Source: a virus
DNA length: 21,849 nt
IMG/VR virus record: IMGVR_UViG_3300010938_000142
Location: 1 to 21,849 of that record
Reading direction: 5' to 3' (one strand)
The notes under the pieces: generated by a model
The model's database searches: none
Told to the model about the DNA's origin: nothing
The model's input: the letters and a program-made list of their open reading frames with translations, nothing else
Part shown: positions 2,813 through 20,791 of the stretch, piece by piece
Numbering within the stretch: position 1 is the first letter of the stretch
Layout: every line of letters starts with the position of its first letter
Translations under genes and position numbers: made by a program

Positions 2813-2823
2813 AACGCACAAAA

Positions 2824-2899
2824 TTGACCGTAGGGGCGTTCCAACACGTCCCCTCGTACCCCAAGTATCCCGAACCCCTCCGAACGTCTCTACGGTCAA
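2824..2899 (+). repeat. 18-bp inverted repeat downstream of the helicase gene
   Basis: Arms 2824-2841 and 2882-2899 pair over 18 positions as RNA: ten perfect pairs (TTGACCGTAG with CTACGGTCAA), then two G-U wobbles mixed with Watson-Crick pairs, around a 40-base loop. A run of five T occurs nine bases after the stem, which is too far for a standard terminator. It may be a structured 3' end, a processing site or a protein-binding site. Confidence 0.7.
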
Positions 2900-3005
2900 A
2901 TACGTGCGTTTTTGACCCTGGTGTAACGAGTCAATGCCCAACGTCGTCTCTATATCCCAAGAGAATGCAAACCACCATGGTATTCTCTGCCTCACATTTC
3001 CTTCC

Positions 3006-3042
3006 GCCCCATGACGCGAGTCCCAGTTGCATGGGGCTTTTT
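3006..3042 (+). terminator. Intrinsic terminator after the helicase gene
   Basis: Stem GCCCCATG (3006-3013) pairs perfectly with CATGGGGC (3030-3037) across a 16-base loop and is followed directly by TTTTT (3038-3042). It is 193 bases after the helicase stop and likely ends the replication transcript. Confidence 0.75.
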
Positions 3043-3148: not shown

Positions 3149-3190
3149 TGCCTCGCGCTGAGACCGTCCCCCTCAGCGCGAGGCATTTTT
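3149..3190 (+). terminator. Strong intrinsic terminator
   Basis: A perfect 14-bp stem, TGCCTCGCGCTGAG (3149-3162) with CTCAGCGCGAGGCA (3172-3185), has a 9-base loop and is followed by TTTTT (3186-3190). It is the second rightward terminator in 150 bases and probably insulates the sigma gene promoter from replication-operon read-through. Confidence 0.85.
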
Positions 3191-3462: not shown

Positions 3463-4083
3463 ATGATAGTGTCAAGGAGTAGCGCGGCGGCTAGCTTGGA
3501 TGGCAAAGTATCAGAATACGTGGGTCGTATTCTGGAGGGGGATGAGACGGCGTTTGAGGGTTTGTACGTAACACTCAAGCCGTTGGTTCTTCAGAAAGCC
3601 CTTCGAGTTCTGAAGAACCGTCCCGATGCGGAAGATGTCGTCCAGCTCGTGTTCATGCGAGTCTGGACGTGCATTGGTCAATGGAATCCAGCCCGAGGAG
3701 CCTTTATGGGCTGGTTCAATGAAATAACGAAGAACATCATTATAGATGTTCTCAGAAAAAATAAGAGACAACAGGATAGGTACCTGTTTCAAAACGAGAT
3801 TCTTGACGAAGAATTTCGTGAGAATCTCGTGTTTGAGACGAAAGAACGCGTCGTGGCCTCTCCACATGAAGAAGTGGAGAGAAAGGAAATCATCGAAAGG
3901 GTTATGGAGACGGTCGAAGGATTCGTGGATTCGCGGAAGCGACCGTGGAAAGCACGATACCTGGACCATCTCAATGTCCGCGAAGTAGCGGACTTAGAGG
4001 GGAAGAATGAAAATACGGTGAAGGTGGTGCTTCACCGTACGAATCAGACTATTAGAAATAAGCTTGATTACCTTTGGGTTTAG
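3463..4083 (+). CDS. ECF-type sigma70-family RNA polymerase sigma factor
   Basis: This would bind host core RNA polymerase and redirect it to phage promoters. The 206 residues hold only the two domains typical of ECF sigmas. Sigma-2 spans about 25-102, with DAEDVVQLVFMRVW (55-68, compare the family DAEDLVQETFLRAW) and FMGWFNEITKNIIIDVLRKNKR-like promoter-melting and -10 recognition sequence (81-102, cited here only as a family resemblance). Sigma-4 spans about 158-200, with the helix-turn-helix around NVREVADLEGKNENTVKVVL (171-190) followed by HRTNQTIRNKL. The linker (103-157) is long and charged. ATG 3463 follows AAGGAAGG (3453-3460). The gene stands alone, with its own promoter, a leader hairpin and a bidirectional terminator downstream. 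Target promoters were not identified. No anti-sigma gene is adjacent. Confidence 0.9.
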   Translation: MIVSRSSAAASLDGKVSEYVGRILEGDETAFEGLYVTLKPLVLQKALRVLKNRPDAEDVVQLVFMRVWTCIGQWNPARGAFMGWFNEITKNIIIDVLRKNKRQQDRYLFQNEILDEEFRENLVFETKERVVASPHEEVERKEIIERVMETVEGFVDSRKRPWKARYLDHLNVREVADLEGKNENTVKVVLHRTNQTIRNKLDYLWV

Positions 4084-4116
4084 GTGGGTTTAGGCTCTTC
4101 TTCCCGCCGAAAAGAA

Positions 4117-4151
4117 AAAGCCGATGGAAAAGTTCATCGGCTTTATTTTTT
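4117..4151. terminator. Bidirectional intrinsic terminator between convergent genes
   Basis: AAAGCCGATG (4117-4126) pairs perfectly with CATCGGCTTT (4135-4144) across an 8-base loop. On the plus strand ATTTTTT follows; on the minus strand the same stem is followed by TTCTTTT. It can end both the rightward sigma transcript and the leftward lipoprotein transcript, whose stop is at 4167. Confidence 0.9.
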
Positions 4152-4166
4152 GCGATTCCTCCAAGC

Positions 4167-5363: not shown

Positions 5364-7292
5364 ATGATCAATCGAGATATTCTCGTTACGCCGGATGAAG
5401 AAATAGTCTCATTCTTCAAAAAGGCGTATACCCAGTTTTATCGTCTATCCAGTGAGGTAGAACCAAGTAAAGTTGAGCTAGCTACAAAAGCTCAGGAAGC
5501 GATTCGGAAACGTAAAATTTACTTTTTCGAGAACTGCCTTTGGATTCGTACCAAAGAGGGCGGGAGTCAACAATTACTTATATTGAAATCATCTCAAATA
5601 AAGTTCCACGAGGAACTGAAGAAGCAAAAGAAAGCCGATGAGCCATTACTAATAATCTGCTTGAAGGCGAGGCAGATGGGAATATCAACTTATATCGCCG
5701 CGGATTTCTTTACGGACGTTATTACAGAACGGAATGTTCGAGCTTGTATTATGGCTCATGACAAGGCGACGGGTTCCCTCTTGTACAACATCTACCGGTT
5801 CTTTTACGATAGTCTTGAAGAGGAACTTAAGCCGGTAATGGGAACAGGTCGTCGAGAGGGGACTCGGCTTGTATTTAGAGAAGGTTCTGATAGACGTAAA
5901 GGGTTGAACTCGGAGATTGAGGTGCTTGTTCCTCAGGAGGCGTCCAATGATGCGACTGGTAGTTTGGGTCGTGGCATGACGTCTCATTACCTTCACATTT
6001 CAGAACTTGCCTTCTGGTCAAATCCTTCGGCTTCTCTTACGTCGCTTCTGCAATCATTTGCAGACAAGCCAAACTCTAAGTGCATCATTGAATCCACGGC
6101 TAGGCAGGCAGGGGATTACTTTCACGTGGAGTGGGAACGCGCCTGCGAGGGAAAGTCCGATTATCATCCGATATTTCTGCCGTGGTTTACGGACGATACT
6201 TATACGCGCCCCTTTAGAACACCAGAAGAGCGAGATAAATTTGAGAAAGATTTACGTCAAGAATATGACTCGGAATACGGTAATGAATGCGCCATTATGG
6301 AGCAATACGGACTCACCCTAGAACAGATGAACTGGAGACGTAGAGTAATCCGAAACAAATGCAATGGGGATAAAAACATATTCTTTACCGAGTATCCGTC
6401 GAATCCCGAAGAGGCGTTCCAGCATGCCAAGGGGAATTATTTGAGTGGTAGCCGAATGAGTATCTTTATCAAGAAAGCGTTTCCTCCCACAGCGACAGGG
6501 GATTTTGTTGTTGGTGGGATGGTATCTAAGCCCTACTTGAAGCCGGTAAGGCATCCCCTTGTCGCGATATGGAGCAGGAAAGGCGAGGAGGAACCGTTTC
6601 AGTATGCCGAGTACATTATTGGCGTGGATGTATCAGAAAACCTACCTTCTGGAGACTACAGCGCCGCGGTAGTACTGAGAAGGATGCCTCTACGTGTTGT
6701 GGCCAGGCTTCGTGGGAATGACCATAGGAAACCCTTAACAGAAGAGTTCTGTGAGCAACTCGCCCTTATGGGCAAGTACTTTAACAACGCCAAGATTTTG
6801 ATTGAATGTAACTCTATTGGCCAAGAGGTTATAAGGCGCGTCCGAGATATTGAGGGTTATACTAGACTTATTACCTTGCAGGAGCTTCATCCCGAACTGA
6901 ATCGCCCGGTTATTCAGTATGGATTGAGAACAAGTACAACAACTAGAAGGCAGCTTGTTGATAGCTTTAAAGAGATTTTTGAAGGGAAGGAGGATTTTGA
7001 ATGCCCCGATGAAATACTCTTGAAAGAGTGCATGGCGCTTGCCCCAAATGAGCATGGGAAAGTAGAAGCACCTAAGAAGGGGCGACCTCGCGCGAAGACG
7101 GAACCGGAGGTAGGCTATTATGATGACCTTGCATTTGCGCTTGCAATTGCTTATTACGCCCACCTTAGGTTGCCTGCTCCAAGAACACAGGAGCAACTTC
7201 GTTTTGACATGGAAAAACGAGAGTCTATACTGTACGAGAGAACACATGAGGAACTCCGGCACCCAGATTACGCCTATCTTGATTACGTTTGA
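5364..7292 (+). CDS. terL: Terminase large subunit (packaging ATPase and nuclease)
   Basis: This motor pumps DNA into the prohead and cuts it at the start and end of packaging. The 642-aa protein has both domains. ATPase: a Walker A-like KARQMGIST (101-109), Walker B YLHISELAFW (209-218) with acidic Glu214, and coupling motif ESTA (243-246). RNase H-like nuclease: IIGVDVSENLPSGDY with Asp422 (418-431), ILIECNS with Glu481 (478-484), and YYDDLAFA with Asp587/588 (585-592). The three acidic metal-binding positions are all there. ATG 5364 is six bases after the holin-like stop, with TAGAGG just upstream. No typical small terminase precedes it. The next gene starts nine bases after its stop. Confidence 0.95.
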   Translation: MINRDILVTPDEEIVSFFKKAYTQFYRLSSEVEPSKVELATKAQEAIRKRKIYFFENCLWIRTKEGGSQQLLILKSSQIKFHEELKKQKKADEPLLIICLKARQMGISTYIAADFFTDVITERNVRACIMAHDKATGSLLYNIYRFFYDSLEEELKPVMGTGRREGTRLVFREGSDRRKGLNSEIEVLVPQEASNDATGSLGRGMTSHYLHISELAFWSNPSASLTSLLQSFADKPNSKCIIESTARQAGDYFHVEWERACEGKSDYHPIFLPWFTDDTYTRPFRTPEERDKFEKDLRQEYDSEYGNECAIMEQYGLTLEQMNWRRRVIRNKCNGDKNIFFTEYPSNPEEAFQHAKGNYLSGSRMSIFIKKAFPPTATGDFVVGGMVSKPYLKPVRHPLVAIWSRKGEEEPFQYAEYIIGVDVSENLPSGDYSAAVVLRRMPLRVVARLRGNDHRKPLTEEFCEQLALMGKYFNNAKILIECNSIGQEVIRRVRDIEGYTRLITLQELHPELNRPVIQYGLRTSTTTRRQLVDSFKEIFEGKEDFECPDEILLKECMALAPNEHGKVEAPKKGRPRAKTEPEVGYYDDLAFALAIAYYAHLRLPAPRTQEQLRFDMEKRESILYERTHEELRHPDYAYLDYV

Positions 7293-7634: not shown

Positions 7635-8209
7635 TGAAGCGCTTTGAATACCGCCGTTTGGAAATACAAGCCCCGTCGCTGTACATATCGAACGAGGCAA
7701 GCTTTTACGTTCGGTTGGACCAAGAACTTTCAAGGTTAGCTAGTGAGGGATGGGTTGTTCAATATAGTTTCTATGAAAAGACGCTACGTTTCCAGAATGG
7801 CGTATATAACTTCTTGTTGTATCGAGAAGTAGGTGATGAAGAGGAACCGAAGCAAACGGAGTCTTCCGAAGGAGAAGAGAGGATGTCGCCGGAGGTACCT
7901 CCGGCGGGACTTAAACGTGCCTATACGCTCGTAGAGATTGCGCGGATACTTGGCATTTCTTCGGAGAATCGTGCGAATCAAAAAAAGCGCGTTCTTGAAC
8001 TAGAGCAACAGGGTCTTGTTATTCGAGACGTGAATGGGGATGCCATTCAGTTAGGGTTGCCACCTAAAACGCGTCGTTATGTAGTGGGGGATGATCTCCG
8101 GCGATTTTTGTCTGAACATCACCCGGACAAGCTTTATGCGTTGGAGGGCAAGTCCTCCGTTGAAGATGAAGTCCCTGAATCTCTTTATTCTAACGGAGAT
8201 GAATCGTGA
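7634..8209 (+). CDS. DUF4177-like domain plus helix-turn-helix-like protein
   Basis: The 191-aa product (from ATG 7634; TTG 7628 is a less likely start) has an N-terminal part, about 1-66, matching the DUF4177 pattern: MKRFEYRRLEI, then LDQELSRLASEGWVVQ and a final FLLYREV strand. An acidic linker follows. The C-terminal part, about 95-160, looks like a winged or MerR-type helix-turn-helix (TLVEIARILGIS, then RVLELEQQGLVIR). AGGAG (7622-7626) sits seven bases before the ATG. It overlaps the portal start by GTGA (8206-8209). A DNA-binding protein between TerL and portal could be an atypical small terminase or a regulator; the role is unproven. Confidence 0.75.
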   Translation: MKRFEYRRLEIQAPSLYISNEASFYVRLDQELSRLASEGWVVQYSFYEKTLRFQNGVYNFLLYREVGDEEEPKQTESSEGEERMSPEVPPAGLKRAYTLVEIARILGISSENRANQKKRVLELEQQGLVIRDVNGDAIQLGLPPKTRRYVVGDDLRRFLSEHHPDKLYALEGKSSVEDEVPESLYSNGDES

Positions 8210-10233
8210 ACGAAGAGCGAGGGTTTGGTAAACGTCGTTCACGTAGACGAACTTTTTCGGCGCCGATGTATCCGCGTCGAAATGCTGATAGTGCATTTGA
8301 CTTATCGAATACGTCCAAGATAGCGAATCTTGACCGAGAGAAGGACGACGAAAAGATAGTCAAGGCAGTAAAAGCCGCTGTTGAGGATGCTGAATCTTCG
8401 ACAAACTACCAACGGTTTGTTCGTCAATTCCTCGAATCGTGGGAGTTTTACAAGGGGCAGCAATGGCTTGACGAAGACTTGGAACCTTCCGAAGCGCCCT
8501 CATGGCGATTCCGGGCAACGCGGAATATCACGTTTTCAACAATCCGGAGCATCGAAGGGCTCTTGATGGACGCTCGACCGGTTCCCTACATTGTGGCGGA
8601 TTTCCGGCAAGGACGAGCGGAAGAGTTCATTCGTGCGCATCAAGCCCAAATGCCGTATCGCCCTAATATTGGGGACAAATTGTCAGATGAATATATTGCC
8701 CGGCGATTGACGGACATTCTTCATGCTGAATATGAACGGCGAGATGAAGAGATTCTGCTTGGCCAAGTGATGTCCGATTGCGTTGTCGCTGGTCTTGGCG
8801 TGCGAAAAATCACTTGGGATACCAAGCGAAATCGTCCTGCTGCTGTGCAGGTATATCCTCCCGATGTGCTAATAGACCCGTACTGTTCCGATCATTTATT
8901 GGACACAGCGAAATATATTGTGTTTCGGAAGACAATGGACGTGGAAGACTTGCAGCACTACTACAACGTGTCCAAATCCCGTATGCGAAAAATTGTGGAG
9001 TCCGCCGGCTATTCAGAATGGGATTATGAAGGAGGGTTATTCGGAGAGAGAAAGTTCAAGTCTCCGTTTCGTGATGGATATGTTCCAAAATCCGCGATGG
9101 CGGACTCAATGAAGCGAATGCGCGTTGATGTTTATGAGATGTGGTTCTTCGGAACGACCCTGTATGAATTAGAACACGAACAAGATGAAGCATTAGAGCA
9201 TCCATTCGGAAGAAATATCATTGTCGCTGGAGACGAACTGCTATTGGACCAACCTAATCCCTATCCTCATGGACTTTTGCCTTTTGTGTTTTTCAGAAAC
9301 TACGGCGATCCAAGAGACCCTTATGGTTTCGGAGATGTGCTCCCGATTCGAGGGGACCAGGTTTCTCTAAACGTAGTGTTATCTCAGATAGTCATGAATT
9401 TGATATTGATGGCAAATTCCCAATGGGTATTTGAAGAAGGCGCATTATTGAGAGATTGGCTTACTAATCAGCCGGGCCTTGCCATCGAAGTGCCTCGCGG
9501 AATGATAAACTCAATCCGTAAAATTGAGGGAACTAGCGTTCCACCGCAGCTATTCCAGCTCGTTCAGTTCTTGGAGCAATCCGTAAAGAATATTTCCAAC
9601 ATCAATGAGACGGTACAAGGGGCAATGCCGCAAACTCATACGCCAGCAATCGCTATCTCGGCATCGCAGAACGCGGCTCTTGTTCGTATTCGAGAAAAGG
9701 CAAAGCTCCAAGAAGCGGCGTACAGAAAGCAAGCTTATATGGAAGTGCGGAACTTGCAGGAATTTGCGGTATTGCTAGACCCACTCAGGACAGGAGAATT
9801 AGACATGGGAGAGTGGCTAGCTTGGGACGAGCGGATGCGTCGTCTCGTTTTTGATATTCAAATCGAAAGCAAAGTAGGGCAACCTGCCAACTTGATGGAT
9901 AAGTTGAACTTTGCGCTTCAGCTGATGCAGACAGGCGCAATGGATGCGTTGGCCCTTATTGATTACGTGGAACTGCCGATAGACGAACGTTATCGCCGGA
10001 AGATGGAAATCGCTGATGAGATTCAAATGCTTCAAGCAGAGTTGATGCGTATCCAGCTTCAAGCGCAGCTTGCCCAAGTTCAGCAGCAAGCCCAACAACC
10101 ACAACCGCAGCAATCGGTTTCTCCTCAGGGTGGTCAGGCACAAGGCGCCCCTCAACAACAAACACCGCCACCATCAATGTCTCCTGAGGAGGCACAACGC
10201 GTAGCTCAGCAATTGTCCGCGCCTCAAGATTAA
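8206..10233 (+). CDS. Portal protein (P22-like)
   Basis: The portal forms the dodecameric ring at the unique capsid vertex through which DNA enters and leaves. The 675-aa product resembles P22-type portals: an N-terminal helical segment with WEFYKGQQW (about 76-84), ATRNITFSTIRSIEGLL (about 105-121), and YPPDVLIDPYCSD (about 216-230) in the clip/stem part, then a long helical C-terminus rich in Gln/Ala (about 600-675) that could form the barrel seen in P22. GTG 8206 overlaps the previous stop by four bases and is preceded by CGGAGA (8194-8199). It lies between packaging and scaffold genes, the standard order. An 88-base gap with a hairpin follows. Confidence 0.9.
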   Translation: MNEERGFGKRRSRRRTFSAPMYPRRNADSAFDLSNTSKIANLDREKDDEKIVKAVKAAVEDAESSTNYQRFVRQFLESWEFYKGQQWLDEDLEPSEAPSWRFRATRNITFSTIRSIEGLLMDARPVPYIVADFRQGRAEEFIRAHQAQMPYRPNIGDKLSDEYIARRLTDILHAEYERRDEEILLGQVMSDCVVAGLGVRKITWDTKRNRPAAVQVYPPDVLIDPYCSDHLLDTAKYIVFRKTMDVEDLQHYYNVSKSRMRKIVESAGYSEWDYEGGLFGERKFKSPFRDGYVPKSAMADSMKRMRVDVYEMWFFGTTLYELEHEQDEALEHPFGRNIIVAGDELLLDQPNPYPHGLLPFVFFRNYGDPRDPYGFGDVLPIRGDQVSLNVVLSQIVMNLILMANSQWVFEEGALLRDWLTNQPGLAIEVPRGMINSIRKIEGTSVPPQLFQLVQFLEQSVKNISNINETVQGAMPQTHTPAIAISASQNAALVRIREKAKLQEAAYRKQAYMEVRNLQEFAVLLDPLRTGELDMGEWLAWDERMRRLVFDIQIESKVGQPANLMDKLNFALQLMQTGAMDALALIDYVELPIDERYRRKMEIADEIQMLQAELMRIQLQAQLAQVQQQAQQPQPQQSVSPQGGQAQGAPQQQTPPPSMSPEEAQRVAQQLSAPQD

Positions 10234-10280
10234 GAATTCTTTGTAATAACTATATCTACCTGGTGCATTATAGAATTATG

Positions 10281-10299
10281 AGAAGCCAGAGTGGCTTCT
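10281..10299 (+). other. Intercistronic hairpin between portal and scaffold genes
   Basis: AGAAGCCA (10281-10288), a GAG loop and TGGCTTCT (10292-10299) make a perfect 8-bp stem with no T-run, so it is not a typical terminator. It ends 22 bases before the scaffold ATG and just upstream of its ribosome site GGGAGG. RNA processing, mRNA protection or translational adjustment is possible. Confidence 0.65.
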
Positions 10300-10321
10300 A
10301 ACGAATGAAAGGGAGGCACTG

Positions 10322-11392
10322 ATGAAAGGTGAGCGAACATCTGGAAATCAGGGTCCTATTCCCGGTACGGAACACTTGAGCGAAACCGCGCAAGCGATGA
10401 TGTCGCAGATAGCGCTTGGAAATATCTCCGGCGACACGGGAACAGCGCCTGCTGAAGAAGCGGGGTCCGATTCCACGTCCACCGCTGTTGATAGCCAAGA
10501 CGCCGAAGAGTATTCCGCTGAACCGGAGGATAGCGATACAGTTTCCGAAGGTGATGATGTCGCGGAAGAAGAGGTGCCCGAGGACCTCGCCGAAATTCAG
10601 CAACAGTACGGGGCTGAGGTCGCGCGCTTGATGGAGCAATATCAGCGCGCTATTCAAGAGCGAGACCAAGCGAAAGCTGATTATCAGCATGCGGTCTCAT
10701 TTGGTACGCGGAAATCGCAGGAAGCAGCGGAAGCACAGCGCCTCATCGAGGCGCTCAATCAACGCATTGCTGCGTTGGAGCAACGAATAACTACTTCCGC
10801 TGTGCAAGCCTCTGTTGAGCAGGGGGCATCCCCGGAAGTGGAGGCACTTTCCGAATTGGGTTTGACTCCGCAAGCCCTTCGGAGTTTGCTTGCACAAACG
10901 CCGGAGTATCAACAGCTTGTCGGTGTTGTGCAACAAATGTTGGCAAGAGAACAGCAACGTGAATATGAATCCCAAGTCTCGGCGAAAACACAAGCCTTGG
11001 TCAACAAGGTGGAAAGTTGGAGCCAAGAACTGTATGGGGTTCCCACCTCTCAGTTGGCTGATTCAAATGCACGACAAGTCCTCACTACCGCTTTGCATCT
11101 TTACGGTACAGGACAGGTTGAAGAGGCCGAACGACTTATTCGCGCGGAATTCGGCCGTCAAGTAGCCGTGAGGGTTGCGACGCGCCAGCAGAAGGCTAAC
11201 TCTGCGGGACTTCGAGCGGTCTCGGAATCTGCTCGTGGCAATTCACCGAAGGGAGGCAAACCGCGTTCCTCCATTCCAGAAGTGGACTTCGGTGAAGATT
11301 TCGCAAGACTTTCTGCGCCGGAAGCATCTGCTCGGCGGCAGGAAGTTATGTTGCGGATGATTGACGCCCTTGGAAAGAAAAGGGCTTCGTAG
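10322..11392 (+). CDS. Putative scaffolding protein
   Basis: This internal protein would guide capsid assembly and leave before or during packaging. The 356-aa product has the expected composition: a disordered acidic N-terminal third (about 30-90, with many Glu/Asp/Ser), a long Gln/Ala/Glu coiled coil (about 88-150), more helices, and a basic Ser/Gly-rich segment (about 290-320) before a C-terminal helix. Scaffold C-termini typically bind the coat protein. It lies between portal and major capsid genes, which is the main support. GGGAGG (10311-10316) is five bases upstream of ATG 10322. No protease motif was seen. Sequence identity is not diagnostic for scaffolds, so the call rests on composition and position. 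Confidence 0.8.
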   Translation: MKGERTSGNQGPIPGTEHLSETAQAMMSQIALGNISGDTGTAPAEEAGSDSTSTAVDSQDAEEYSAEPEDSDTVSEGDDVAEEEVPEDLAEIQQQYGAEVARLMEQYQRAIQERDQAKADYQHAVSFGTRKSQEAAEAQRLIEALNQRIAALEQRITTSAVQASVEQGASPEVEALSELGLTPQALRSLLAQTPEYQQLVGVVQQMLAREQQREYESQVSAKTQALVNKVESWSQELYGVPTSQLADSNARQVLTTALHLYGTGQVEEAERLIRAEFGRQVAVRVATRQQKANSAGLRAVSESARGNSPKGGKPRSSIPEVDFGEDFARLSAPEASARRQEVMLRMIDALGKKRAS

Positions 11393-11399
11393 GCTCACT

Positions 11400-11518
11400 C
11401 TCGGCTCCCGAAGGGATAGGGAGCCGAGCCGATGCCTATATGGCATCGTATCCCTAGTGAGATACATCCCGAACTCCTGCTCTTTTAGAGCACGATCTCT
11501 CTTGCTTCTCTTTTAGAG
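11400..11518 (+). other. Hairpin-rich leader of the major capsid gene
   Basis: Four hairpins are packed between scaffold stop and capsid start: CTCGGCTCCC/GGGAGCCGAG (11400-11409 with 11419-11428, perfect 10 bp), CGATGCC/GGCATCG (11430-11436 with 11442-11448), and two copies of CTCTTTTAGAG (11480-11490 and 11508-11518), each able to form a short stem with a TTT loop. No long T-run follows the strong stems. The layout suggests control or stabilisation of capsid mRNA rather than simple termination. Confidence 0.7.
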
Positions 11519-11541
11519 AGAGCCTGTGAAAGGAGAACGGA

Positions 11542-12567
11542 ATGTCTCTCATTTCCGAACTCAATGCGATTACGCGCACTGCTTGGGTTGCATCCAACAC
11601 CAAGCTGATTGACCGAAACTTTGCTCTGATGAAGATGCTGCTTCAAAGAGCAAAGCGGGATAAGCCCCTCGGTCAAAAAATCGAGTTTGGGCTCTGGACC
11701 AAACGCATTCCTACAGGCGTTTTGGCTAACGCGTACAGCGAATACCAAAGCGCCAATCAAGAATACACCGTTGTTGGAAGCCTCCAGTACGTCACGGCAT
11801 ACGGCGTGATGGAAATCACGGGTCAACAACTGCGCGCTCAGCACGGTGTTGACATTGATGTACTCGAGAACATGGACTCCTTGAGGAGTCTTTCTCGAAA
11901 CGAGCAACTGGTTTTGATTTCTCTTGTGGACGGCCAGATTGACCGTGCCATTGATGACCTTGCGTTCTCCTTGGGGTCGCAAGCCTATAACGGTACAGGA
12001 GCCAGTGGCGCGGAGCTGATTGGGTTGAAAGCCATCATAGACAACTCAACATCTGTTTATGCGGGCTTGGACCCAGCAGACCCCGTATTCACTACGGACG
12101 ATGTAACCGGTAATGGGTGGTGGACTCCACAGGTGGACTCAAACGGCGGCACAAATAGGGAACTCACGCTGGAACTTATCAGCAAGATGTTGAATAAGGT
12201 AAGGCGTGGGAATGAGCGACCAGAGGACGTTATTGTTCTGATGAATAATGACCTCTGGAGTACATTTGAACTCATCCTCGAAGGGCAGCATCCAAAAGAT
12301 AGCCGGCTTGCACAAGTCGGTTTTGATGCGATCGAATGGCATCAGGCTTCGTTCCTTCGTGATGAAATGTGCCCAGCAAACAAGATGTACTTCCTCAATC
12401 TCAACCATCTGTGGCTTCAAGTTCGTCCATCCCAGGACTTCAAGTTCAAAGGATGGAAATGCGTCCCGAAGCAGGATGTAGTGATGGGGGTTGTGCAGAG
12501 TGACCTTCAAATCGTTTGTAATGACCGCCATCGCCAAGGTGTCATTACGGACATCGCCACCATCTAA
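11542..12567 (+). CDS. Major capsid protein (HK97-fold type)
   Basis: The 341-aa product is the probable main coat protein. It starts directly with a mature-like N-terminus (MSLISELNAITRTAWV), carries a beta segment around ANAYSEYQSANQEYTVVGSLQYV (about 63-85), a helix around DGQIDRAIDDLAFSLGSQAYNGTGA (about 130-154) typical of the spine helix and following loop, and a C-terminal beta region with VVMGVVQSDLQIVCNDRHRQGV. Location after the scaffold and before a decoration-like protein is classical. The ribosome site is strong: AAAGGAG (11529-11535), six bases before ATG. A structured leader precedes it. Fold assignment rests on context and general resemblance, so structure prediction would be confirmatory. 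Confidence 0.85.
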   Translation: MSLISELNAITRTAWVASNTKLIDRNFALMKMLLQRAKRDKPLGQKIEFGLWTKRIPTGVLANAYSEYQSANQEYTVVGSLQYVTAYGVMEITGQQLRAQHGVDIDVLENMDSLRSLSRNEQLVLISLVDGQIDRAIDDLAFSLGSQAYNGTGASGAELIGLKAIIDNSTSVYAGLDPADPVFTTDDVTGNGWWTPQVDSNGGTNRELTLELISKMLNKVRRGNERPEDVIVLMNNDLWSTFELILEGQHPKDSRLAQVGFDAIEWHQASFLRDEMCPANKMYFLNLNHLWLQVRPSQDFKFKGWKCVPKQDVVMGVVQSDLQIVCNDRHRQGVITDIATI

Positions 12568-12581
12568 GGAGGGGATGAACG

Positions 12582-13415
12582 ATGTGGGTTGAACTTCAAT
12601 TCCAGCAGGTCTGGGAGCAGTCGGCATCTCCCTCCATGAAAGCTGGGACGATTGGTCGAACTCCAGACGGGCGATTGTGGCGTTACGTGCAAGCGTCTGT
12701 GGCTTTGTCCGCAGGAAATGTCTGCGTCAAAGCCAACAACACCGGGATTGCTATTGATGCCGATGTGGACGCTGCCGCAGCAGCGGATACCATCCGAGTA
12801 ACCGGCACGGGCGATTTTACTGCAACGGCCCTCGAAGATGCTGATTACGAGTCCGGAAACAATCAAGGACTGGGACATCAGTACTTCTTGTGGATTGATG
12901 CAGGGGGATCGCAGGGGCAGGGTGGTATTGTGACCTCTCGTGTGTCCGATAATGTCGTCGAGGTTTACTGGGTCAATTCTGACGATGGTAAAATCAGTAC
13001 GGCATTGACAACGGCGTCGGACTACGTCGTCATGACAGACGCGCGGGTGGCAAAGTCGTCGGCGGCGACCCAGAACGCCGTATGCGTGGCGCAGATTGCG
13101 GTGACTGACGAGTACTGGTTTTGGGGATTGTACTTCGGGAAGGGCATTGTGCTCTTCGACACGGATGACAACCCCGTAAAGACCACGGACTTGGCGTTAA
13201 TCCCGTCTGCAAGCACTGCCGGATATTCGCAGGGAACTACCGCCTCCGGGGCAACAGCAGGAGAGGCGCTCTGTGTATTCGGACGCACTTACATTGACCA
13301 AACAGCAGACGGATTGATTCTGTTCAATGCGAACTGCATGTGGACAGACCCGTCGACAAACATCCTCCTGCCGACGGATGTTGCCTTCGGTTATCCGAAG
13401 ATGTTCCGTCAATAA
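12582..13415 (+). CDS. Capsid-associated structural protein, possible decoration protein
   Basis: The 277-aa product is Ala/Thr/Asp/Gly-rich and probably all beta. It includes a segment typical of small virion domains (GRLWRYVQASVALSAGNVC, about 30-48, then VKANNTGIAIDAD). The C-terminal half has more strands and aromatic residues. It begins 14 bases after the capsid stop with GGAGGGG (12568-12574) seven bases before ATG 12582; another ATG at 12575 is out of frame. Genes directly after the major capsid gene often encode outer-surface decoration or cement proteins. No specific family was identified. Confidence 0.65.
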   Translation: MWVELQFQQVWEQSASPSMKAGTIGRTPDGRLWRYVQASVALSAGNVCVKANNTGIAIDADVDAAAAADTIRVTGTGDFTATALEDADYESGNNQGLGHQYFLWIDAGGSQGQGGIVTSRVSDNVVEVYWVNSDDGKISTALTTASDYVVMTDARVAKSSAATQNAVCVAQIAVTDEYWFWGLYFGKGIVLFDTDDNPVKTTDLALIPSASTAGYSQGTTASGATAGEALCVFGRTYIDQTADGLILFNANCMWTDPSTNILLPTDVAFGYPKMFRQ

Positions 13416-13426
13416 CCCTTTCTTCG

Positions 13427-13456
13427 GCGTGGGATGAGAGCAATCTCGTCCCACGC
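13427..13456 (+). other. Intercistronic hairpin with GNRA tetraloop
   Basis: GCGTGGGATGAGA (13427-13439) pairs over 13 positions, with one U-G wobble, to TCTCGTCCCACGC (13444-13456), closed by a GCAA loop of the GNRA type. No T-run follows, so it is not a typical terminator. It lies 33 bases before the next ATG and could stabilise the upstream mRNA end or set relative expression. Confidence 0.8.
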
Positions 13457-13488
13457 TAGGCGGGAAGGTAGGGAAGAAAGGAAATATC

Positions 13489-14313
13489 ATGTCCACATTC
13501 TATACCGGGAAGGCGCCGGATTTTTCCAGCGATAACGCACGTAAGAATCCAAACATTGTGTTCCTTCGGGAGCATATGTTTGGTGCGGGGCTATCCCAAA
13601 CAACGGGAGACCCTATCTTTTGGGCGCCCATTACGTTTCAACCAAACAGTAACAACGCCGGGGTTGCGGTCACCATAGACCAGACCACGAGCAATGTGGC
13701 CGCCGAAATCAGGCAGTCCACGACTAGCAGCGTGTTGCTCATCAAAAACACGAATGCTGGTGCTACGGGTGCCGTGCTGGACATTAAGCACGACTCTGCA
13801 TCTCCCGCTGTGGACGATGTACACGGTAGAATCCGGTTCATCGCCAACGATAGTTCCGGTGCAGAGGTCGTAGATCAACGCATTGATGCGGTCATTTCTA
13901 CGGCAGCGGCGGCGTCATTTTCTACAAAATTTGTCTTTTGGACATCGGACGCAGGCACGGGAAATGAAGCCTTCCGAATCCTGTCCGAAGGACGAATTCA
14001 AGTGGATGTGGCGTCTGCCATTGCCGGTACCACTGGAACCGCTGATGTCTTTGACGACTTCGACGACATCGCGGTTATTTCAAAGTGGAACAAGAATCCC
14101 GCGATGCGTATCGAGTTCATGAAAGAACTCGAAGCCATGGGTATTGCAGAAAGGAAGAACACGGGCTCCGGGTGGATGCTCAATCTCCAGCGAGCTCTCT
14201 TCCTTGCCTACGGTGGCATTACCCAACTGTATAAAACGATGGACGGGCGGTTGAAGGCAATCGAAGAAAAACTCGGTATCGCTCAGCCGCTTCGCCTCGT
14301 AGACATCGAATAG
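13489..14313 (+). CDS. Virion protein with fibre-like beta region (hypothetical)
   Basis: The 274-aa product has three visible parts: an N-terminal segment (1-45); a beta-rich middle (about 46-175) with tail-fibre-like motifs such as GAVLDIKHDSAS, HGRIRFIANDSSGAEV and EAFRILSEGRIQVDV; and a helical C-terminus (about 195-274, ending in a likely coiled coil, MDGRLKAIEEKLGI). A trimeric head fibre or spike is plausible. It sits among head genes, not with the tail fibre. AAAGGA (13477-13482) is six bases before ATG 13489. No named family was recognised. Confidence 0.6.
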   Translation: MSTFYTGKAPDFSSDNARKNPNIVFLREHMFGAGLSQTTGDPIFWAPITFQPNSNNAGVAVTIDQTTSNVAAEIRQSTTSSVLLIKNTNAGATGAVLDIKHDSASPAVDDVHGRIRFIANDSSGAEVVDQRIDAVISTAAAASFSTKFVFWTSDAGTGNEAFRILSEGRIQVDVASAIAGTTGTADVFDDFDDIAVISKWNKNPAMRIEFMKELEAMGIAERKNTGSGWMLNLQRALFLAYGGITQLYKTMDGRLKAIEEKLGIAQPLRLVDIE

Positions 14314-14324
14314 AAAACCTAGAT

Positions 14325-14349
14325 GGGGCGGTATTCATACCGCCCCTTT
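14325..14349 (+). terminator. Hairpin with short T-run after the fibre-like head gene
   Basis: GGGGCGGTA (14325-14333), loop TTCA and TACCGCCCC (14338-14346) form a perfect 9-bp G/C-rich stem followed by TTTCTT. It starts 12 bases after the preceding stop. It may be a partial terminator that steps down the head operon, or an mRNA 3'-end stabiliser like the other gap hairpins. Confidence 0.55.
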
Positions 14350-14370
14350 CTTAGAAAGGAGAACAACCGG

Positions 14371-14529
14371 ATGAATCGGACTAAAGGTGTTCGGATGCCG
14401 AGGAACATAAAAAGAAAACTATTGCCACCACGAGACGTGGACGTAGCTGCTCCGGCGCAGTCTGCCCTACCAAAGAACTTCAATCTCAATAAGTACTCCG
14501 CTTACCGTATTAAGAAGGGGATGCGTTAG
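14371..14529 (+). CDS. Small basic hypothetical protein
   Basis: The 52-aa product is very basic (MNRTKGVRMPRNIKRKLLPP at the N-terminus and YRIKKGMR at the end). ATG 14371 is chosen because AAAGGAG (14355-14361) lies nine bases upstream; the in-frame ATG at 14323 falls inside a hairpin and lacks a ribosome site. Its stop is one base before the GTG of the next open frame. The charge suggests nucleic-acid binding or a small virion protein, but no family was recognised. Confidence 0.6.
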   Translation: MNRTKGVRMPRNIKRKLLPPRDVDVAAPAQSALPKNFNLNKYSAYRIKKGMR

Positions 14530-14530
14530 T

Positions 14531-14635
14531 GTGTCAACGTTTACATATGATGAGTTGGTCAAAATTATGGACGAATCACTGTCGAAATATTATCTTGGTA
14601 CTAGTCAAGACCAAGCGAGGAAAAACGTATTATAA
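14531..14635 (+). pseudogene. N-terminal fragment of the first glycosyltransferase, cut off by a frameshift
   Basis: GTG 14531, with AAGGGGATG upstream, opens a 34-codon frame ending TAA at 14633-14635. Residues FTYDELVKIMDESLSKYYLG match FTHEELSKIMDESLSKYYFG of the downstream paralogue, and about 84 bases align with some nine substitutions and one missing A. The A-run at 14621-14625 has five A where the aligned frame needs six; the paralogue has seven. A -1 shift there restores RKKRIIN and joins the 14656 frame. It may be a real mutation, a homopolymer sequencing error or a recoding site. Confidence 0.7.
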
Positions 14636-14655
14636 ATGAACAGTACCCTGAGATA

Positions 14656-15291
14656 ATGATTGATGCTAAAATTCTTATAGGAGTCCCATGTAGTCTGGGC
14701 GATGTACCAAAAGAGTTTACGCTTAGTCTTTTCAATTTAGAGAGGCCGTGCCCGTGCCAGTTATATTTTCAGAACGGCTACGAAATATCAACAATGAGAA
14801 ATAATATAGTCGGGCATGCATTATCAGGAGATTATACGCATGTGCTCTTCCTTGACTTGGACATGATATATCCTACAAACATCATTAAGGCTTTGTTGGA
14901 AGCGGATAAGAATATAATATGCTCTTTTTGTGTTAGAAGAGTTCCTCCAAATATACCGTTGTTCTTGTTAGATACAGAAACTCGTTACGTGATGAGACCT
15001 GAATGGCCGCCCGGTATGGGAGTATATGAGGTAGGGGCAATTTCTGCAGGGGGATTATTGGTAAGAACGGAAGTATTTAGAAAAATTAAACCGCCATGGT
15101 TCTCGTACAATAAAAAGGCACCTAACGGGAATATAGTTAGCGAAGACATATATTTCTCGGTTAGAGCAAGAGATGCAGGATTCAAGTTGTGGTGCAGAAC
15201 TGACGTGATTGTCGGTCATATTTCTAAGGTTGTATTGATACCTGTGCTGAGAGAAGGAAGATGGTCATGCGAGTCAATGCAGCTGGTTTGA
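14656..15291 (+). CDS. GT-A-fold glycosyltransferase-like protein (first copy)
   Basis: The 211-aa open frame holds the catalytic part: an N-terminal strand IDAKILIGVPCS (2-13), a helix around ISTMRNNIVGHAL, the DXD-type motif THVLFLDLDMIYP (about 62-74) for metal and nucleotide-sugar binding, RRVPPNIPLFLLD, a glycine-rich AISAGGLLVRTEVF (about 128-141), and SEDIYFSVRARDAGFKLWCRTD (about 162-184 region) resembling the acceptor-side ED motif. It has no strong ribosome site at ATG 14656 and is probably the continuation of the frame starting at GTG 14531. Base composition is A/T-richer than neighbours, with many ATA and AGA codons, a sign of separate ancestry. It overlaps the second copy. The substrate is unknown. 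Confidence 0.75.
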   Translation: MIDAKILIGVPCSLGDVPKEFTLSLFNLERPCPCQLYFQNGYEISTMRNNIVGHALSGDYTHVLFLDLDMIYPTNIIKALLEADKNIICSFCVRRVPPNIPLFLLDTETRYVMRPEWPPGMGVYEVGAISAGGLLVRTEVFRKIKPPWFSYNKKAPNGNIVSEDIYFSVRARDAGFKLWCRTDVIVGHISKVVLIPVLREGRWSCESMQLV

Positions 15292-16163: not shown

Positions 16164-16181
16164 TCATTAAGGGAACGAGTG

Positions 16182-18448: not shown

Positions 18449-18611
18449 AAGCAAGGCGCAATTCCGTTTGATGAAGGGGATTGCCGAAGGTGGAATCAAA
18501 CCCCGTAAGGGACTCCCGTCTAAAAAAGAAGCGGCGGAGTTCGTGGAAGGACAATCTCCGAAAGGGCTTCCTGAGAGAGTAAAGAAGCGAAAAAAGAAGT
18601 CCAAATACTAG
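18438..18611 (+). CDS. Small basic DUF3008-like phage protein
   Basis: The 57-aa product begins MPAKSKAQFRLMKGIAEG and contains FVEGQSPKGLPERV followed by a Lys/Arg tail. This layout (PAKSKAQ-R-M...F....PKGLPE) resembles small basic proteins common in phage structural regions and listed as DUF3008-like. ATG 18438 is preferred over 18417 because AAGGAGG (18425-18431) is six bases upstream. Function unknown, possibly virion DNA or protein binding. Confidence 0.7.
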   Translation: MPAKSKAQFRLMKGIAEGGIKPRKGLPSKKEAAEFVEGQSPKGLPERVKKRKKKSKY

Positions 18612-18627
18612 TTGGAGAAATGCTTCT

Positions 18628-20757: not shown

Positions 20758-20791
20758 GTTTGGTCTCTTAAACAGATTCCGTAGGTGAAGC

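Follow-up and report, generated by a model that had tools for sequence, protein, structure and literature searches.

Genes and folded gaps of the head region

The window analysed here, a stretch of 21,849 bases from the virus record IMGVR_UViG_3300010938_000142, carries a run of head genes whose intergenic gaps contain sequences predicted to fold as RNA. The run comprises the portal gene (8206-10233), a putative scaffold gene (10322-11392), the gene for the major head protein (11542-12567; hereafter the capsid gene), two further genes (12582-13415 and 13489-14313) and a small open reading frame (ORF) starting at 14371. The portal and capsid genes are recognized by PHROG matches. The scaffold gene is named by its position only and matches no PHROG family at E <=0.01; gene 12582-13415 weakly matches a PHROG family of unknown function and gene 13489-14313 matches none at the same threshold, "decoration" and "fibre-like" being candidate labels for the two. 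Structure prediction for their products gave a mean predicted local distance difference test score (pLDDT) of 33. The head stretch has five gaps (10234-10321, 11393-11541, 12568-12581, 13416-13488 and 14314-14370), four of which hold a strong stem, the exception being 12568-12581 with just 14 nt. This agrees with the initial annotation, which had placed a hairpin in most gaps between the head genes; stems are indeed found at all four places that it named between 10234 and 14370 (10281-10299, 11400-11448, 13426-13457 and 14325-14346).

The RNA folds of these four gaps go beyond chance. When each gap was shuffled 400 times with its dinucleotides preserved, stems as good as or better than its best one arose 4, 1, 0 and 0 times (gaps listed 5' to 3'). 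The scores of the four best stems were 20, 28, 33 and 25, and the top score in 100 coding chunks of 80 nt was 22, three of the four stems thus outscoring the best stem of every chunk. The folding-energy z scores of the gaps on the sense strand are -1.66, -4.59, -6.20 and -3.16. By the same stem shuffles other gaps of the window are unremarkable (14530-14655, 94/400; 18449-18627, 350/400; 20758-20791, 221/400), gap 2813-3010 is intermediate (32/400), and gap 4084-4166 has a terminator-like hairpin (0/400). Rfam gave no match at gathering score in the window; at E <=5 the region 10200-14400 returned only SNORA57 (E 0.3, 13417-13487) and RRE (E 2.7, within a gene), both below gathering.

All features are given on the + strand. 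The hairpin of the portal-scaffold gap (h1, 10281-10299) has 8 bp and a loop of 3. The one 3' of gene 12582-13415 (h3, 13426-13457) has 14 bp, including two G-U pairs, and a GCAA tetraloop, which fits the GNRA loop earlier assigned to 13427-13456; the energy of its gap was reached in 0/200 shuffles. Around h3 an outer helix of 9 bp (13417-13425/13473-13481) begins one base past the preceding stop codon and pairs the Shine-Dalgarno sequence of gene 13489-14313; with longer flanks, the sequence immediately 5' of 13473 becomes the partner of its 5' arm instead. The hairpin 3' of gene 13489-14313 (h4, 14325-14346; 9 bp, loop of 4) is followed by TTTCTT, and a short inverted repeat, CCTTTCT/AGAAAGG (14345-14359), pairs the Shine-Dalgarno sequence of the small ORF at 14371. 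The description of the stems as a regular series did not hold: their lengths are 8, 10, 14 and 9 bp, their loops have 3, 9, 4 and 4 nt, and several helices make up the second site.

The leader of the capsid gene

The scaffold-capsid gap holds more than one hairpin. Its predicted fold combines a three-way junction, which may include a 7-bp pseudoknot, with two small hairpins and an imperfect helix of 19 bp, an organization that could be compared with that of one close relative (described below). The junction is closed by helix P1 (11394-11399/11456-11461), found in the minimum-free-energy fold of both genomes, and carries the hairpins P2 (11400-11428; 10 bp, 11400-11409/11419-11428, with the 9-nt loop GAAGGGATA) and P3 (11430-11448; 7 bp, 11430-11436/11442-11448, with a loop of 5). 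The segment AGGGAUA of the P2 loop (11412-11418) is complementary to UAUCCCU directly 3' of P3 (11449-11455), and the two might form an H-type pseudoknot, 7/7 pairs of which are kept in the relative; at least 7 such pairs arose in 165/20,000 shuffled flanks. For geometric reasons P1 is unlikely to form in full alongside the complete 7-bp pseudoknot. The part of the leader that holds the junction (domain I, 11393-11465) has a z score of -5.73, with 0/200 shuffles as low. The remainder (domain II, 11466-11541) is by itself unexceptional (z -1.62, 16/200) and holds the small hairpins hp4 (GCUCU-UUU-AGAGC, 11479-11491) and hp5 (UCUCU-UUU-AGAGA, 11507-11519), the latter with 5/5 pairs the same in the relative.

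The imperfect 19-bp helix, P4 (11456-11478/11531-11553), is interrupted by small internal loops and appears once the capsid start is included in the fold (11455-11556: z -3.45, 1/300 shuffles). It is predicted to pair both the capsid Shine-Dalgarno sequence AGGAG and the AUG, and 19/19 of its pairs are kept in the relative. The predicted probability that the capsid Shine-Dalgarno sequence is unpaired is 0.20 (0.08 in the relative). The outer 7 bp of P4 compete with P1, the segment 11456-11461 being common to both; a fold with P1 forced lies 4.2 kcal/mol above the free minimum (11393-11570; -65.8 versus -70.0) and retains the inner part of P4. The leader might act as a conformational switch, with the segment AGUGAGA (11456-11462) alternating between P1, where it pairs back and closes the junction, and P4, where it pairs forward over the capsid start. 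Capsid synthesis would then be tuned, and the scaffold to capsid ratio held from one mRNA, by a ribosome that covers the 5' strand of P1 as it completes the scaffold gene, or by a virion protein at the junction or pseudoknot. We regard such a switch as distinctly improbable.

An alternative is that the leader is a protein operator, to which the capsid, the scaffold or another phage protein would bind at the junction or pseudoknot and so repress capsid translation. It has a precedent in T4 gene 32, whose leader is described as having an H-type pseudoknot 5' of the start codon and being repressed by gp32 (PMC3014915). The capsid leader shares the H-type topology 5' of a start codon; it differs in that the pseudoknot here is just a 7-bp complementarity within a three-way junction, and by eye no A+U-rich tract like that of the gene 32 operator lies between domain I and the start. 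By analogy with gene 32 such an operator is conceivable, if unlikely.

Other candidate elements in this gap were set aside. A long-range helix, 11386-11401/11515-11530 (81% complementary), is by inspection broken by changes in the relative at 11522, 11525, 11528 and 11529 of its 3' strand. A role of the pseudoknot in frameshifting was rejected on the grounds that the capsid frame is open for only about 4 codons 5' of its ATG (345 versus 341 aa), and one in readthrough because a second in-frame TAG lies 8 codons past the scaffold stop. A sigma-70 scan, whose consensus may not match the phage's own sigma factor, found no promoter in 11393-11541. The element CTCTTTTAGAG occurs three times in the window (11480, 11508 and 16192), always on the + strand, two copies being in the capsid leader and one just within the gene at 16179. 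Of these, the relative retains only the leader pair, one copy with a loop change.

Conservation in one close relative

The close relative is the contig IMGVR_UViG_3300036768_001410, with 94-100% protein identity for six query proteins and about 92% identity in DNA; 278/1523 fourfold-degenerate sites differ between the two. Helices were taken from the fold of the window and tested on the relative, counting one single-base deletion and excluding a 13-nt insertion near 14346. Against this background of silent differences the paired sites of the predicted helices are spared. Over the four gaps, with all helices bar the pseudoknot and P4, differences affect 2/146 paired and 35/221 unpaired sites, a bias reached in 0/20,000 within-gap permutations; for the four main stems of the initial annotation alone the counts are 1/82 paired versus 36/285 other sites (37/20,000 permutations). 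In the capsid leader 1/66 paired and 11/83 unpaired sites are changed (Fisher's test 0.0073; 138/20,000 permutations), and in the h4 gap 0/18 and 8/39 (747/20,000).

In P2 the paired sites are intact and two loop bases are changed, while the sole changes in P3 and hp4 are the loop bases 11440 and 11484. The relative keeps 7/8 pairs of h1, the loop-closing A-T having become A-C, and a Shine-Dalgarno hairpin comparable to that at the ORF at 14371 is present despite the insertion. Compensatory changes, by which the initial annotation had proposed to judge the stems, amount in this one relative to a single one-sided replacement: U-A becomes U-G at 11399/11456 of P1, which remains paired in the sense RNA and is unpaired in its complement. 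This U-G pair, those of h3 and the GCAA loop fit RNA of + sense, the sense in which the head genes are coded. Folding energy likewise favours the sense strand in the h3 gap (z -6.20 versus -4.69 antisense) and is without strand preference in the capsid leader (-4.59 sense, -4.67 antisense). As far as sequence can tell, the G-U pairs of the sense strand favour action in mRNA over action in DNA.

Scans of viral contigs with proteins and DNA patterns returned this one close relative, together with distant terminase relatives (26% identity, one only 5.9 kb) that match 0/16 of the other window proteins tested. Searching genomes with the portal and the capsid alignment yielded no close relative, and blastn gave no match for the head stretch and the leader against phages or for the leader against plasmids. 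A covariance model of the junction, run over 11 sources, recovered only its two training sites, along with two further antisense rows (E 0.11 and 0.37) at the same place.

In the portal-scaffold gap, an AT-rich block (10241-10288) that reaches the 5' arm of h1 has 2 differences in 48 nt in the relative and variable flanks. It may hold a promoter for the phage sigma factor, from which transcription would start near h1. The candidate promoter sequence just 5' of h1, TGCATTATAGAAT, has no second copy in the listed window gaps at <=3 mismatches, and the phiEco32-type late motif TAATGTAT was not found on the + strand of the window.

Elsewhere in the window, PHROG matches identify a DnaB-like helicase gene (1412-2812) and the terminase large subunit gene (5364-7292), and a phage sigma factor is encoded at 3463-4083 (phrog_1740, Sigma-70 region 2). 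The capsid protein has a weak, below cut-off similarity to SU10_MCP, which together with the sigma factor is reminiscent of phiEco32-like phages. Strong hairpins with T-runs follow the helicase gene (3149-3185) and the sigma gene (4117-4144), the second being terminator-like on both strands. The gap 14530-14655 contains a second, truncated copy of a portion of the glycosyltransferase-like gene at 15261, missing here in the relative; it represents either a local duplication in the window or a loss in the relative. The last 5 kb of the relative, in turn, have GC-rich hairpins at 55283, 57513 and 58303. Each has ATTATGTAC within a few bases of its 3' end, so that the element is repeated in the neighbourhood of two WD40-repeat genes.

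Candidate roles and known systems

Taken together, these observations suggest that the folds are cis-acting structures in a late polycistronic phage mRNA, with h3 and h4 protecting 3' ends and the capsid leader both bracketing its message at the 5' end and controlling initiation; we place the probability of this reading at roughly one half. Lying just past the stop codons, h3 (after the pair formed by the capsid gene and gene 12582-13415) and h4 (after gene 13489-14313) would most likely protect the 3' ends of the upstream segments, following cleavage, decay or leaky termination. The leader of about 160 nt would bracket the capsid message at its 5' end and govern, by throttling, ribosome initiation on the capsid gene. 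One transcript might thereby supply the scaffold, the capsid and accessory virion proteins in different amounts, and the gap folds probably help to set the amount of each shell protein. That one transcript covers these genes, that the folds act on initiation and decay, and in which direction they do so are all inferred. The proposal of the initial annotation that the stems mark processed or stabilised mRNA segments thus gains from folds that exceed chance, fit the message strand and have spared paired sites; nothing in them is specific to RNase III, and the capsid leader looks like translation-initiation control at least as much as a processing signal.

Several points weigh against the reading as cis-acting structures in the message. 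Windows of low z score occur inside genes too (13920, z -6.49; 11600, z -5.01, among 210 sliding windows of 80 nt with 30 shuffles each), so that structure as such is not restricted to gaps. The h1 gap is the weakest by folding energy, which exceeds shuffles in three gaps only, and its differences in the relative (1/16 paired versus 15/72 unpaired; 3076/20,000 permutations) are not significant alone. The identity of h3 in the relative is uninformative, as it lies within a 99-nt identical run, with one difference in the whole gap; this run is the seventh to eighth longest in the alignment, and stretches of about 100 identical nt are no rarity in the pair. No pair has a double compensatory change in the two genomes available. 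When the upstream coding sequence is left free to pair, P1 becomes dominant (0.75-0.88), the partners of 11465-11479 change and the 5' strand of P4 pairs upstream instead; translation of the scaffold gene would interfere with that pairing, and the fold is uncertain. The occlusion of the capsid start is itself unexceptional, 5/17 starts tested, the capsid included, having an access of <=0.20, and is therefore only a hint; moreover, throttled initiation would be unexpected for a protein made in abundance. If the repeats were chance occurrences or DNA-level elements devoid of RNA function, the low energy score of h1, the loss of its top pair in the relative and its insignificant sparing would be accounted for. 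This is very improbable for the set as a whole, given the shuffle tests, the substitution bias, and G-U pairs and a GCAA loop that are sensible on the message strand only.

A further possibility is that some of the stems are leaky intrinsic terminators, h4 and perhaps h3 stopping a part of the transcripts and producing a gene-by-gene step-down. The h4 stem is GC-rich, runs into TTTCTT and was flagged as terminator-like by the scan. In the relative it is followed by TTCCTTAGACCC (TTCCTT), a poorer U-tract, and three of the four stems (h1, P2 and h3) have no T-run, as the initial annotation had observed for most of them; sought as a GC-rich stem with a U-run, an intrinsic terminator is at best borderline at h4. 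Other phages provide some encouragement for this idea. Eight comparators were used (T7, SU10, A-1(L), Shocker, TM7 phage, BUCT555, ct52p938 and CRP-7), five of them hits of a capsid search that gave eight records, including two near-duplicates and one unannotated. The stem of the post-capsid gap was matched by <=5/200 shuffles in 7/8, SU10 being the exception with 11/200, and some of these stems are followed by T-runs (T7 Tphi, A-1(L)). All five distant capsid relatives tested have a strong post-capsid stem. On balance, leaky termination is a minority possibility, though one to be kept in mind.

The initial annotation had also likened the series to the RNase III-processed late mRNAs of T7. As an idea the comparison is fair, as the T7 head-gene gaps are structured by folding energy. 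T7-type RNase III sites are long, imperfect stems that make about two turns and contain an internal loop. The region 13417-13481 approaches this, with a 14-bp stem and an outer helix of about 9 bp making about two turns and an unpaired stretch on the 3' side. The other stems (h1, P2 and h4) have 8-10 bp. In five T7 gaps that we take to hold RNase III sites (the T7 record carries no such annotation) the arms measure 18, 25, 13, 18 and 11 bp; three thus have arms of 18-25 bp, and the two of just 11-13 bp mean that short arms are not grounds to exclude the enzyme. That RNase III cuts this late message into units at such sites is nonetheless doubtful, no feature of the stems pointing specifically to it.

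Similarly, the position of the outer helix, one base past a stop codon and pairing AAAGG of gene 13489-14313, invites the idea of termination-coupled translation, in which the ribosome ending the upstream gene melts a helix that hides the next Shine-Dalgarno sequence. With a ribosome placed on the stop codon, the predicted access of this sequence rises just from 0.43 to 0.52 in the window and from 0.45 to 0.72 in the relative. It falls for the ORF at 14371 (0.50 to 0.34; relative 0.22 to 0.19) and for the scaffold gene (0.56 to 0.46), and is unchanged for the capsid gene (0.20; relative 0.08). Coupling is accordingly quite unlikely to explain the folds.

The cis-acting reading is of interest because phages must produce their virion proteins in very different quantities from common transcripts, and folded gaps are a plausible way to achieve this where T7-like promoters and terminators for each gene are lacking. 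A pseudoknot-like leader 5' of a capsid gene would be a concrete case of ratio control in head assembly. The post-capsid stems of the comparators indicate that hairpins around capsid genes are common, and their presence in T7 and in distant relatives means that gap hairpins are of a kind already known. A literature search of open-licence PubMed Central with general terms gave no paper on this leader by title among the matches listed. In E. coli operons, intergenic stem-loops are described as setting protein ratios by selective RNA processing and stabilisation (PMC10667835); the window phage, known here from its sequence, is alike in having stems between genes. T4 genes e, soc, 49 and I-TevI have a helix over the Shine-Dalgarno sequence and/or AUG; at gene e, the 5' strand of its structure is eliminated by late promoters (PMC3014915). 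The capsid Shine-Dalgarno sequence and AUG likewise lie in a predicted helix; the gene concerned is here the major capsid gene. No sigma-70-like site is listed in 11393-11541, and the phage's own sigma factor may recognise other sequences.

The closest parallel in arrangement that we considered is T7 gene 10 (NC_001604, gaps 9-10 and 10-11), where a folded leader likewise precedes the capsid gene and a hairpin follows it. The T7 leader holds a phage promoter and the 3' hairpin is the annotated terminator Tphi, whereas the sigma-70 and terminator scans find neither at the capsid gene of the window phage. A pre-capsid stem within the same limit (<=5/200 shuffles) was seen in 2/6 comparators tested (T7 and BUCT555, ct52p938 with 27 nt and A-1(L) with 5 nt being left out), and the pre-capsid gap of BUCT555 is strongly structured too (z -4.29). 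While hairpins in such gaps are common in phages, the capsid leader of the window phage is unusually complex. The phage differs from T7 and the other comparators in its multi-helix junction before the capsid gene, its bare 14-nt post-capsid gap and the placement of the hairpin one gene later.

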